Positions 3,905 through 8,903 of a DNA stretch of 47,542 bases are shown one piece after another; within the stretch, counting starts at the first letter, position 1, and every line of letters begins with the position of its first letter. This stretch comes from Deltaproteobacteria bacterium (GTDB lineage Bacteria > Desulfobacterota > Syntrophia > Syntrophales > UBA8958), in NCBI GenBank assembly GCA_026388335.1, contig JAPLJZ010000161.1, forward strand, positions 1 to 47,542. The letters run 5' to 3'. Position numbers and translations under genes: made by a program. The notes beneath the pieces are model-generated. The model had not been told where the DNA came from. It ran no database searches and worked only from the letters and a program-made list of their open reading frames with translations.

Positions 3905-4414
3905 AATCATAAATATATCCTGTAGATCCATCCCCTTCAAGGGTCAGGGTGGGTAAATATTGGAACAGCACCCCCTATTTATTTGGCTACCACATCATCA
4001 CCTATCCCTTTGAAGGAAATTGATATTCTGCAACTGCACCGATGCCCTTGAAGAGGATGAGGAATTGTACTCAATTATTTCATTAACATGCCCGTGTAGG
4101 CGTATAATTATGGATTTAACTTCCTTCTGAAAGCAGTAAATAATCGCCAACCGCGACTAAGATACGGGACTTCGAAAGCAATCACTGCTGTTCTTTCCCT
4201 CCCTAATTATGATATGGGTAACGGAAATATTGGCGGCTGAATTTAAAGGACCGGGGCCGACGGATACATAGTTGAAGCAGCGTGGCGCTATCGGGAAACC
4301 ATGCGGTTAAGGGGAAAACAAACGTCAACCTGTGAGATCGGGAAAGACCAGACTACTATATTCAAAAACAAGCTTCCTATGCGGCCTGACAAGATAGGTA
4401 TAAGGGGGTACAAA

Positions 4415-6592
4415 ATGAAAAGGCTGATCACAGTCGTAACTTTGTTGATGTTGCTGATCCTGTCGGTTCTGTTCATGCTTCCAGCCGGGGCGGGAGAGAA
4501 AATTGGTTACTACAATATTGAAAGTGTCCTTATGAATTCAATTGTAGGAAAAGATACTGGTGAGAAGTTAAAAAGCATATATCAAGATCGAAAAAACCAA
4601 ATAGCGGATATGGAAAAAGATCTTCAAAGGAGAAAAGACGAATTAGAAAAACAAAGACCTGTACTAACTGAAAAGGCACTGGGTAAAAAAGAATTAGATT
4701 ACAAAGATAGATTTATAAAATATCAAGAATTGGTGAAGCAAGCAAATGAAGAAATACAAAAACCACGACAATCATTCCTGGATGATAATGTACCCAAAGT
4801 ACTGGCTATAGTCGAAGATATAAAACGCAAAGAAGCATATAGTAATATAATCGAAATTTCTAAAGAAGGCAAAAAACCAAGCAATTATAAACATGAGCAA
4901 GATATAACTGTCAGGGTTACTCAACGTTTTAATTCAGAAATAGCTTCAAATAAAAGCTCGCCGCAAACAACGGTAAAGAAAAATGTTCCTATCTCTCCGC
5001 CAAATTTATCGGCGACACTTGCTTTCTCCGAACCCTCGGGGAACAACATTCTCGATGCCGGGGAGATGGGAAAGCTGATAATTACCGTGAAAAACAGCGG
5101 TAAGGGCGACGCTTTCGACGTGACGGGGGAGATTCAGGCAGGCAGTTCCAGATCGGCACTCGCCTTTGACCGGACGATATCCTTTGGGACAATTGCTGCA
5201 GGCGCCGAGGTCAAAAGAGAAATCTCCATCCAAGCCAAGGAGGAAACGCCCACGGCAGATGCAGCCCTGACCGTGGAGCTGAAGGAGGCCAACGGTTTTG
5301 ACGCCCAGCCACTACGGGTGGCCTTCAAGGTCAAGGCCTTTGTGCCGCCCCAGTTGGTGGTTGCCGACATGGGAATCAACGACCAGAGTGGAAATTCCCG
5401 GATAGAGCCGATGGAAATGGTGGAGGTAACCGCCCGGATTCAGAATATTGGCCACGGGGACGCCAGGAATGTAACCGTGGATGTGGAAACCGGGGCCAAT
5501 GTCTTTTTGGCGGGGGACAGCGACAGCCGCAGCCATTTCGAGATCGGGGGCCTACCGGCGGGAAAATTCCAGGATGTAAAATTCACCTTTTACACAAATA
5601 CCCGGATCAAAAACGGCGAACAGATTCCCCTGACCCTGCGCCTGCGGGAAGCAAGGCCGCAGTTCAACGCTTCCCATCCCCTGCAATTGGCCATGAACGC
5701 CCCGGCCAAGGGGACACAGGATTTTGTAGTTACAGCAAAAGATGCCAAACAGGAAGACATCCATTTGGCCACGGGATTGAGCGTGGATGTGGACAGCCGA
5801 ATTCCGGAAGGGAAAAAGGCCATGGAAAATGACGTCGCTGTGATCATCGGCAACCGGCATTACACCGCCCGAGGGGTGCCGGAGGTGGCCTACGCCGATC
5901 GGGACGCAAAAATCATGCGGGAATACATGATTCAAACCTTTGGTTTCAAGACAGATAACGTGATTTACGAGGAGAACGCGACCCTCTCGAAATTCAACGA
6001 ACTCTTCGGAACGGTGGACAAACCCAAAGGCAAGGTCTTCAACTGGATGAAGAAAGGGGCCAATCTCTTCATCTATTACGTCGGCCACGGGGCACCGGAC
6101 CTGGAAACCCAGGATGCCTACTTCGTCCCCGTGGACGCCAATCCCCAGTATATTGCGACCAACGGCTACCGCCTCCAGACCTTCTACGCCAACCTGGGAA
6201 AAATTCAGGCGAAAAAGATCACCGTCGTCATTGACGCCTGTTTTTCAGGCAATTCCGACCGGGGCTTCCTCTTCAAGGAGATCAGCCCTGCCCTTGTGAA
6301 GGTGAAGACGGGCTACCGAGGGCCGCAGAACGCCTTGGTCATGACGAGCGCCGCCGAGGACCAAGTTTCGAGCTGGTACAAGGACAAACGCCATTCCCTG
6401 TTCACCTATTACTTTTTAAAAGGCATTCAGGGGGAGGCGGACGTGAACAGCGACGGCCGGATCACTGTCGGGGAGATGAAGGCCTATCTCACCGAAAACG
6501 TGCCGCACATGGCCCGACGCCTCAACAACGTCGAACAACACCCCGTCATCGTGGGGAATGACCAGGAAATTTTAGTGTCGCTGAAAAAGTAA
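4415..6592 (+). CDS. Secreted Skp/OmpH-like + CARDB-like repeats + caspase-like (peptidase C14) fusion protein
   Basis: Start set at ATG 4415 (RBS-like aaggggg upstream; signal peptide MKRLITVVTLLMLLILSVLFMLPAGAG). Skp-like KIGYYNIESVLMNSIVGKDTGEKLKSIYQDR..., two beta-sandwich-like repeats (ILDAGEMGKLIITVKNSGKGDA / RIEPMEMVEVTARIQNIGHGDA), then VAVIIGNRHY, YYVGHG and VIDACFSG caspase motifs. Confidence 0.85.
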   Translation: MKRLITVVTLLMLLILSVLFMLPAGAGEKIGYYNIESVLMNSIVGKDTGEKLKSIYQDRKNQIADMEKDLQRRKDELEKQRPVLTEKALGKKELDYKDRFIKYQELVKQANEEIQKPRQSFLDDNVPKVLAIVEDIKRKEAYSNIIEISKEGKKPSNYKHEQDITVRVTQRFNSEIASNKSSPQTTVKKNVPISPPNLSATLAFSEPSGNNILDAGEMGKLIITVKNSGKGDAFDVTGEIQAGSSRSALAFDRTISFGTIAAGAEVKREISIQAKEETPTADAALTVELKEANGFDAQPLRVAFKVKAFVPPQLVVADMGINDQSGNSRIEPMEMVEVTARIQNIGHGDARNVTVDVETGANVFLAGDSDSRSHFEIGGLPAGKFQDVKFTFYTNTRIKNGEQIPLTLRLREARPQFNASHPLQLAMNAPAKGTQDFVVTAKDAKQEDIHLATGLSVDVDSRIPEGKKAMENDVAVIIGNRHYTARGVPEVAYADRDAKIMREYMIQTFGFKTDNVIYEENATLSKFNELFGTVDKPKGKVFNWMKKGANLFIYYVGHGAPDLETQDAYFVPVDANPQYIATNGYRLQTFYANLGKIQAKKITVVIDACFSGNSDRGFLFKEISPALVKVKTGYRGPQNALVMTSAAEDQVSSWYKDKRHSLFTYYFLKGIQGEADVNSDGRITVGEMKAYLTENVPHMARRLNNVEQHPVIVGNDQEILVSLKK

Positions 6593-6622
6593 GTGTAATA
6601 TCAAGAGATTTTTGGAGTAGTT

Positions 6623-6883
6623 ATGGAAATGAAATTTGTATTGTGCATAGACGACGGCGGTTATCCTGAGGCCTTGAAAGTCAGGAAATTATATGAAGTC
6701 AGAGAGGATACGGAAGCCGAGAGAAAAGGTATGATCAGGGTCATTGATGAAAGCGGCGAAGACTACTTGTATGCCCGAGATTTTTCCTCTTTGCGGAGCT
6801 TTCCCCAGCAATCAGGGATCCCTTGGCGGCAAAAGCGTTGTGACGATTCAATAATGATCACCGGTTTATCACCTTGCCGATAA
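6623..6883 (+). CDS. Small conserved hypothetical protein (KFVLCID..GYPEALKVRKLYEV...IRVIDESGEDYLY); C-terminus apparently altered by a frameshift
   Basis: ORF; N-terminal 50 aa resembles a recurrent small bacterial protein family; see frameshift finding. Confidence 0.6.
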   Translation: MEMKFVLCIDDGGYPEALKVRKLYEVREDTEAERKGMIRVIDESGEDYLYARDFSSLRSFPQQSGIPWRQKRCDDSIMITGLSPCR

Positions 6884-6911
6884 ATAGCTTGACGTTCAGG
6901 GGGAAGCAGCG

Positions 6912-7763
6912 ATGAAGATTTTGAGAAAACAATTATTGGTGCCGCTTGTTTTAATAGTCTTGGCGATGTTCCCGGCAGCGGTAGTTTTCTCCCAGGCCAA
7001 CGGGCCTCACCAGGGAGAAACTATCAAGGGCGTCACGGCGGAGGCCGCCTGTGCCATTGTCGGAATGAGCGCCGAACAATCCCAGACGCTGGCTCTCCAG
7101 CGGGCCCGGACAGGGGCCATAGAGCAGGCTGCCGGGGTGTCGGTGTCTTCGGCGACTTTGGTCACCAATGCCGCCGTCGCTGTCGATCTGATCAAGACCT
7201 ACGCCCGGGGCTTCATCATCCGGGAGGAGGTCCTGTGGCTACCCCTGGGTCAGTATCAAAAGGATGCTTCCCAGCCCCCCATTCCGGAGTATCGCCTGAA
7301 GCTTACCGCCGATGTCTTTGTCCCCCGGAAGCGCATTCCGTCCCTGCATCTCCAGGCAAAATTGAATAAATCCGTTTTTCAGGCCGGCGAAAAGGCCCGG
7401 ATTACAATAAGCGCCGAACGCCCCACCCGGATTGCTCTCTTCAATCTCATGGCCGACGACCGGGTGGCCATGAACTTTCCCAATGATCATGAACGCCGGA
7501 ACGTCATAGAGGCCGGGCAGACGATTTCCCTCCCCGCCGCCGACAGTCCTATCGAACTGGAAATGCAGACCCTTCCCGGCCATGAGCGGGACGCCGAGGC
7601 CTTTCTCGTCGTTGCCGTTGATCAAGGTGCACAACCAGTCGATTTTCTGAAGCTCTTTCCATCCCACTCTCCCATGTCCATGCCCGCCTTTTTCCAAAAC
7701 CTTTCCACCATAGCCGACATCTGCGAGGAAGTCATCCTCCCCTATGAAGTGAATAAAGAATAA
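6912..7763 (+). CDS. Secreted DUF4384-type domain protein with N-terminal FlgT_N/LPP20-like region
   Basis: Signal peptide MKILRKQLLVPLVLIVLAMFPAAVVFSQA; ARTGAIEQAAGVSVSSATLVTN...; FQAGEKARITISAERPTRIALFNLMADDRVAMNFPN resembles DUF4384. Confidence 0.7.
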   Translation: MKILRKQLLVPLVLIVLAMFPAAVVFSQANGPHQGETIKGVTAEAACAIVGMSAEQSQTLALQRARTGAIEQAAGVSVSSATLVTNAAVAVDLIKTYARGFIIREEVLWLPLGQYQKDASQPPIPEYRLKLTADVFVPRKRIPSLHLQAKLNKSVFQAGEKARITISAERPTRIALFNLMADDRVAMNFPNDHERRNVIEAGQTISLPAADSPIELEMQTLPGHERDAEAFLVVAVDQGAQPVDFLKLFPSHSPMSMPAFFQNLSTIADICEEVILPYEVNKE

Positions 7764-7802
7764 ACAGGGGGGGTTCAGGAATAAATAGAAATATGGGAAA
7801 TT

Positions 7803-8903
7803 ATGAAAAGTTTTTCAGCTATGCAAAGAGCTCAAATATCGGTACCACTGATCGTCCGGGGCAACAAGCGCCTCCCTCTTGATGGTATCCGGACGATACT
7901 GGTAAGAGGGACAAACTGGATCGGCGACGCCGTCATGACCCTACCTGCTCTCGCTGCTATCCGCAGAACCTGGCCACAGGCGCAGATTTCCGTCCTCGCT
8001 AAACCCTGGGTAGTGGATATCTATCGGGAGTCAGCGGACGTTAACCGAATAGTAATTTTTGAAGAGCCGGGTCGTCATAGTGGCCCGACAGGGAAGATTC
8101 GTCTCGCAGGCGAACTTCGGCAATACCGCTTCGACATGGCAATCCTTCTTCAAAACGCCATTGAGGCCGCCATCATTGCCCGCTTGGCGGGAATCCCTAT
8201 CCGTGCAGGTTATAACTCCGACGTCCGGGGATGGCTGCTGACCCATTCTGTTCATCGCACACCGGCCATCCGACAGATCCATCAAATCGATTATTACCTG
8301 GAGATGGTCAAGGCCCTCGGCTGCGATTCCGCTGGACGGAATCTCCGCTTGGAGCTGCGGTCGGATACCCGTTCTTTGGCAGATGGATGGTTAAAAATAC
8401 CGGAGAGTCAGCATCAGCTGATCATCGGTATGGCGCCGGGCGCCACCTATGGTCCGGCCAAAAGATGGCCGGTGGATCGCTTCGCCGCCGTTGCGGCAGA
8501 AATCATCAGGGAATATGGGGCAACTATCATTCTCTTCGGGAGCAAGCAGGATCAGGATGTCACAGACGCCATCGCAACAACCATTCAGGGCCACTGCCTG
8601 AATCTCGCCGGAAAAACATCGGTCCGGGAGGTCATGGCCCTCATCGCCCGCTGTCACGCCTTTATTACCAATGATTCTGGTCTGATGCACGTTGCCGGCG
8701 CCATGAATGTGCCAACCGTGGCTATTTTTGGCTCGACGAATCCCGTCACTACTTCTCCGCCTGGGGAGAGGAATATTATCATCCAGAAACCCGTGGATTG
8801 CAGTCCCTGCCTAAAGACCGTTTGCCCAACTGATTTCCGGTGCATGAACCTCATCGGCGTCGAAGAGGTCCTCGCCGCCGTTGGGCAAGCAATTAAAATA
8901 TAA
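7803..8903 (+). CDS. waaF: ADP-heptose:LPS heptosyltransferase II (GT9)
   Basis: ILVRGTNWIGDAVMTLPAL, APGATYGPAKRWP, TNDSGLMHVAGAMNVPTVAIFGSTNP motifs. Confidence 0.92.
   Translation: MKSFSAMQRAQISVPLIVRGNKRLPLDGIRTILVRGTNWIGDAVMTLPALAAIRRTWPQAQISVLAKPWVVDIYRESADVNRIVIFEEPGRHSGPTGKIRLAGELRQYRFDMAILLQNAIEAAIIARLAGIPIRAGYNSDVRGWLLTHSVHRTPAIRQIHQIDYYLEMVKALGCDSAGRNLRLELRSDTRSLADGWLKIPESQHQLIIGMAPGATYGPAKRWPVDRFAAVAAEIIREYGATIILFGSKQDQDVTDAIATTIQGHCLNLAGKTSVREVMALIARCHAFITNDSGLMHVAGAMNVPTVAIFGSTNPVTTSPPGERNIIIQKPVDCSPCLKTVCPTDFRCMNLIGVEEVLAAVGQAIKI

Follow-up and report, generated by a model that had tools for sequence, protein, structure and literature searches.

Organization of the fusion gene

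A single open reading frame on the forward strand of the window (the whole stretch of 47 542 nt that was analysed, from a bacterium related to Smithella) runs without interruption from 4415 to 6592 and encodes a 725 aa protein in which an OmpH (Skp) domain, two CARDB-like domains and a caspase domain are joined. An alternative in-frame ATG is present upstream, at position 4301. The ATG at 4415 looks to be the better candidate, as it is preceded by the Shine–Dalgarno-like AAGGGGGT (4402–4409) and opens a hydrophobic export signal, predicted at residues 1–25 (4415–4489) from the sequence and from an N-terminal hydrophobic helix at residues 2–20 of the structural model. The OmpH domain occupies residues 29–171 (4499–4927) by Pfam, Foldseek and composition, and is followed by a low-confidence linker of residues 172–197 (4928–5005; pLDDT below 50 at residues 180–193). 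Two CARDB-like beta sandwiches are located at 5006–5335 and 5354–5680 by Pfam and the modelled strands, with cores NSGKGDA at residue 227 and NIGHGDA at residue 344, respectively. The caspase (Peptidase_C14) domain covers residues 474–723 (5834–6583). The initial annotation had described one ORF with a signal peptide, a Skp-like N-domain, two repeats and a C14 domain, and the ORF list, Pfam and AlphaFold confirm this layout; the repeat cores are likewise as it gave them.

The AlphaFold model of the whole protein, as a monomer, has a mean pLDDT of 85.7 and contains Skp-like helices and a caspase fold, with low confidence confined to the linkers at residues 180–193 and 428–455. Sequence searches of the PDB with the whole fusion protein, the OmpH part alone and a caspase profile gave no match; PDB matches came from the OmpH profile and Foldseek only.

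The Skp domain

Pfam OmpH (PF03938) matches residues 29–171 over profile positions 1–140 of 141 (3.6e-14, 53.6 bits against a cut-off of 32.4). Modelled separately, this part reaches a pLDDT of 91.7 and forms the small body and long helical hairpin of the Skp fold. Foldseek matches it to Escherichia coli Skp (1SG2, 1U2M) and Caulobacter OmpH (4KQT) with query-normalized TM scores of 0.66–0.76, so that the Skp fold initially proposed was recovered by both profile and structure. The score against the E. coli Skp equivalog NF008047 is below its cut-off (19.8 against 237 bits). Across 14 Skp domains, including the one studied here and that of a second fusion described below (genome G054), 21 columns are invariant. 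A strand motif of the association domain, of the type [ILV]A[YF], has been lost from both fusions; its three hydrophobic positions are kept by nearly all of 21 stand-alone Skps, and in their place alignment shows PSN in the window protein (residues 155–157, 4877–4885) and TSG in that of G054. This loss weakens the earlier suggestion that the Skp part serves as a trimerization module.

The third-position GC content (GC3) falls sharply at 4490–4936, to 0.215 compared with 0.70 in the remainder of the gene, and the shift is abrupt, at about codon 178. Over 150 codons, no other large ORF of the window has a GC3 as low as that of the OmpH part (0.20; next lowest 0.32). Relative to the ordinary skp of the same genome the fused domain is lower as well (0.215 versus 0.52), and in G054 the drop is milder (0.28 versus 0.51). 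An AT-rich donor was considered and is unproven, the closest sequences in 395 genomes of the phylum being the Skps of the same genus. The ordinary skp of the source genome (G000) lies in a bamA–skp–lpxD arrangement on contig C252 (locus L049, 5973–6503); this Skp is more divergent within its genus (73 % to G002) than G002 and G007 are from each other (84 %). The end of contig C252 and the start of the window overlap by 565 bp at 95.4 % identity, a mismatch at the level of strains within a metagenome-assembled genome.

The CARDB and caspase domains

Two stretches match Pfam CARDB (6.1e-9, 36.4 bits against a cut-off of 22.7). Peptidase_C14 (PF00656) matches residues 474–688 (1.4e-16, 61.3 bits against 21.4), and Foldseek places the caspase part with human MALT1, plant metacaspase 9 and yeast Yca1. 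The score against NCBIfam caspase_w_EACC1 is under the curated cut-off (68.7 versus 140 bits), and the PADLOC ‘caspase’ model gives a weak match (9.8e-8).

The catalytic His558 (codon CAC, 6086–6088, in YYVGHG) and Cys609 (codon TGT, 6239–6241, in DACFSG), both at the positions first reported for them, are invariant in 12 family members. In the AlphaFold model they come after the ends of predicted strands at residues 550–556 and 601–607, as in caspases. Asp607, two residues before the cysteine, is as in Arg/Lys-specific metacaspases, and the caspase probably cuts after Arg or Lys. The loop DVNSDGRITVGE (residues 676–687, 6440–6475) has an EF-hand pattern and may be a Ca2+ site; Pfam EF-hand matches on the protein are weak and under the cut-off.

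Genomic context

Upstream of the fusion gene are msbA, lpxK and an lpxL-type acyltransferase gene, the latter two identified by Pfam. Downstream on the same strand are an 86 aa ORF (6623–6883), without a match in Pfam or NCBIfam, and a gene for an exported DUF4384 protein (6912–7763; Pfam, 6.6e-11), followed by heptosyltransferase and gmhB-like genes named from sequence and synteny. The small ORF was not found beside the caspases of relatives. An Rfam scan of the window gave no match.

Synteny comparison against G002 delimits an insert at approximately 3957–7843, between lpxL and waaF. The genes lpxL and waaF are immediate neighbours in G002, G007, G001, G008, G058, G009 and G010, and among the loci compared the insert is peculiar to the source genome. 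The possibility that it was brought in by duplicated bamA–skp DNA was rejected, as the upstream flank shows no resemblance to any of the loci retrieved for comparison. A DUF4384 gene is present at both fusion loci; the G054 fusion, however, does not adjoin LPS genes, so the idea that the protein senses LPS rests on gene position alone and is without comparative support. The initial reading therefore holds for an exported protein with a Skp fold, CARDB domains and an apparently intact caspase, encoded inside a lipid A/LPS core locus, and is weakened for the trimerization role.

Relatives and origin of the fusion

A search for the same architecture elsewhere found the Skp–caspase fusion in 2 of 155 genomes of the order, the source genome and G054. 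The G054 protein is 40 % identical over residues 26–724. Its OmpH and CARDB parts score above the Pfam cut-offs; its caspase part was detected by similarity to P0001 and not by the Pfam C14 profile, and its N-terminus resembles a lipoprotein signal. Further candidates were examined on the basis of long open frames (G051, G049, G033, G047, G055 and G008); those Skps found were ordinary proteins of 188–256 aa, and in the G008 stretch (contig C93) no Skp was detected at the threshold applied.

Residues 190–725, approximately, have many homologues in the 155 genomes that are about 60 % identical, about 565 aa long and equipped with their own signal peptide, and that lack Skp. CARDB–caspase homologues are also present in other families of the phylum, and one (L011) carries TPRs in place of Skp. 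CARDB–caspase genes are often a few hundred bases from a contig end (L008, L041, L042, L046, L048, L069, L071), which suggests repeats nearby.

In the caspase tree the window protein groups with a Skp-less protein of the same genus (G006, contig C17; support 99/98), and a clade of the two fusions is rejected (p-AU 0.0052). In the Skp tree the window domain is nested among the Skps of the genus it belongs to (98/99), and that of G054 is placed elsewhere; a single clade for both fused domains is rejected (p-AU 0.0076). One ancestral fusion is thus rejected in both trees. As both Skp parts form long branches, the case that the fusion arose at least twice, independently, is strong but not final.

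DGR cassettes of the Skp-less relatives

The closest members of the caspase family are located in diversity-generating retroelement (DGR) cassettes at L046 (G002:C77), L041 (G006:C160), L042 (G002:C57), L045 (G006:C17) and L009; that at C17 holds the nearest non-fused relative of the window protein. The cassettes contain genes for a DUF4384 protein, an FGE-type protein whose gene is hypervariable at its 3′ end, a reverse transcriptase and a CARDB–caspase; some add an HRDC gene, and the FGE-sulfatase-domain gene has a signal-peptide-like start. The window DUF4384 protein is approximately 50–57 % identical to those of the cassettes.

The FGE gene carries, at its 3′ end, a variable repeat (VR) that matches a template repeat (TR) near the reverse transcriptase gene. 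TR/VR pairs are found in five loci, four of which have an adjacent reverse transcriptase gene. Mismatches fall at template adenines in 18/20, 15/16, 22/24, 23/24 and 21/25 cases (84–96 %), a bias with p between 1e-7 and 1e-12. Two cassettes whose caspase DNA is 98.3 % identical have 24 VR differences, 22 of them at template adenines, and 3 TR differences. Such a concentration of differences in the VR of near-identical cassettes is the mark of recent diversification.

Because the closest family members sit in these cassettes, the Skp part is a late, in-frame N-terminal addition to a DGR-linked CARDB–caspase family. A DGR remnant was sought in the window and rejected: no reverse transcriptase was detected in the genome, 1–16 000 holds no TR-like repeat, no FGE gene was found at the locus and the window has no convincing TR match. 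The RVT_1 profile matches neither G000 nor G054, the latter 80 % complete; of eight other genomes tested, seven have one (G002, G006, G007, G017, G058, G027 and G064) and G001 has none. G000 retains FGE genes outside the window locus, one of them in a module on contig C74 (L055, 5158–8919), where two adjoining caspase genes, one encoding a PDZ/S41-protease–caspase fusion, stand by DUF4384-like and FGE genes. A 300 nt direct repeat (91 %) connects these two caspase genes.

A possible mechanism and its alternatives

Since the closest relatives without Skp adjoin self-mutating receptor genes, the Skp chaperone may have taken the place of an evolvable sensor in an old caspase of the cell envelope. 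Starting from this architecture and history, a trigger, a protease activity and substrates can be proposed. Caspases are commonly activated by proximity. Skp is reported to pass from a disordered monomer to a trimer upon binding an unfolded client, and to serve DegP as a sacrificial adaptor (reviewed in PMC9820271). The simplest reading of client-driven trimerization and proximity activation together is therefore client-driven clustering in the periplasm: a periplasmic caspase swapped its retro-diversified receptor for the client-binding module of Skp and is switched on by clustering on unfolded outer-membrane proteins. This reading is tentatively preferred, at somewhat less than an even chance. 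The Skp helices would bind unfolded outer-membrane proteins reaching the periplasm, and several copies of the fusion on one client would bring the caspase domains close enough to be switched on. The active protease, probably Arg/Lys-specific and perhaps Ca2+-dependent, would then cleave the captured client or other proteins of the envelope, with quality control as the outcome in mild cases and collapse of the envelope in severe ones. The CARDB repeats could serve as spacers or as arms for binding, and the DUF4384 protein could be a regulator or a substrate. That the protein senses outer-membrane-protein clients is a plausible proposal. Against clustering, the long branch of the Skp part is compatible with loss of function, examples number only two, and the G054 fusion is away from LPS genes.

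With the [ILV]A[YF] motif lost from both fusions, normal trimers may not form, and tethering without trimers is therefore the main rival. Here the Skp part would only target the protein to the vicinity of the BAM machinery or tether it to Skp clients, and activation would come through the DUF4384 partner or calcium. The retention of helical arms and the 21 invariant columns despite the missing strand is consistent with such a role, as are the DUF4384 partner at both loci, the EF-hand-like loop, and the precedent of a Skp built permanently into a secretion translocon as one of its subunits (PDB 8GL8). Tethering is a serious reading, even if an unlikely one.

Envelope defence is rather improbable. 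The caspase would kill the cell when a phage or other attacker disturbs outer-membrane proteins, Skp standing in for a diversified phage sensor. The DGR linkage of the relatives and the weak PADLOC match point this way, and conflict systems have been proposed in which peptidase effectors accompany DGR-diversified FGE/CLec sensors (PMC7159879, PMC10907252); however, the comparable known systems use NTPases (STAND, MoxR), none of which was noticed here, and no defence genes were noticed adjoining the fusion.

The low GC3, the long branch and the missing strand motif would also fit a decaying passenger of an accidental fusion, with the caspase working as before. Yet the frame stays open, the predicted fold is confident, the 21 columns are invariant over 14 Skp domains including both fusions, and the same architecture arose twice, which makes decay decidedly doubtful. 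An assembly chimera, in which assembly of the metagenome fused an AT-rich skp fragment with a caspase gene, is very improbable: the GC3 jump, a genome contamination of 4.9 % and the imperfect C252 overlap speak for it, but the join is in frame with a plausible linker, the region around it occurs once in the genome, bamA does not form the upstream flank, and a second, independent genome has the same architecture.

A further reading is receptor swapping, in which a periplasmic caspase–DUF4384 pair that is normally read out by a retro-diversified FGE receptor would have been re-wired, at least twice and independently, to the cell's own chaperone of outer-membrane proteins, giving a single-chain alarm for failure of outer-membrane assembly, a bacterial analogue of inflammasome-like guards. 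This reading is speculative and on balance unlikely. Clients of Skp are accessible to laboratory preparation, so that the fusion could be used to study how an exported bacterial caspase is activated and what it cuts.

Comparison with known systems

A literature search for OmpH, caspase and CARDB together returned no relevant paper, and the exported caspase/DUF4384/FGE cassette with its Skp derivatives was not found in the searchable literature, outside which most subscription journals lie. A 2012 survey of 671 putative bacterial metacaspases names FGE-sulfatase partners, and OmpH and CARDB are absent from its main text (PMC3501461). DGR-linked caspases have been described in cyanobacteria and in NTPase-based conflict systems, with some targets predicted to be periplasmic or secreted.

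Compared with bacterial orthocaspases and metacaspases, the window protein shares the fold, the His–Cys dyad, the aspartate two residues before the cysteine and the EF-hand-like loop, and differs in being exported and in carrying CARDB and Skp domains. Bacterial caspases have mostly been discussed as cytoplasmic cell-death enzymes; here an exported family is tied to DGR-diversified exported proteins. DGRs, in turn, have mostly been discussed for the variable receptors that they generate, of which few outputs are known. The relatives, in which the caspase adjoins a DGR that targets an FGE-type protein, resemble the DGR-diversified FGE/CLec sensors with peptidase effectors of ternary and STAND conflict systems and the cyanobacterial orthocaspase–CLec proteins. 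Unlike those systems, the relatives encode caspase, DUF4384 and FGE proteins separately, as an exported set in which no NTPase was noticed, and the window copy has lost its DGR or never had one. Within the same genome the S41/PDZ–caspase fusion on contig C74 is likewise an exported caspase with DUF4384-like and FGE neighbours; it is, however, a protease–protease fusion, its caspase is 34–38 % identical, and by Pfam it has no Skp or CARDB.

The Skp part agrees with the periplasmic Skp/OmpH chaperones (PF03938; 1SG2, 1U2M, 4KQT) in fold, length, conserved residues and signal peptide, and departs from them in its fusion to CARDB and caspase domains and in lacking the [ILV]A[YF] strand motif. SkpA of the T9SS extended translocon (8GL8) likewise places a Skp fold within a larger envelope complex, but is part of a type 9 secretion translocon and has no fused protease. 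In the case described here, two lineages seem to have joined a chaperone of known clients to an exported caspase.
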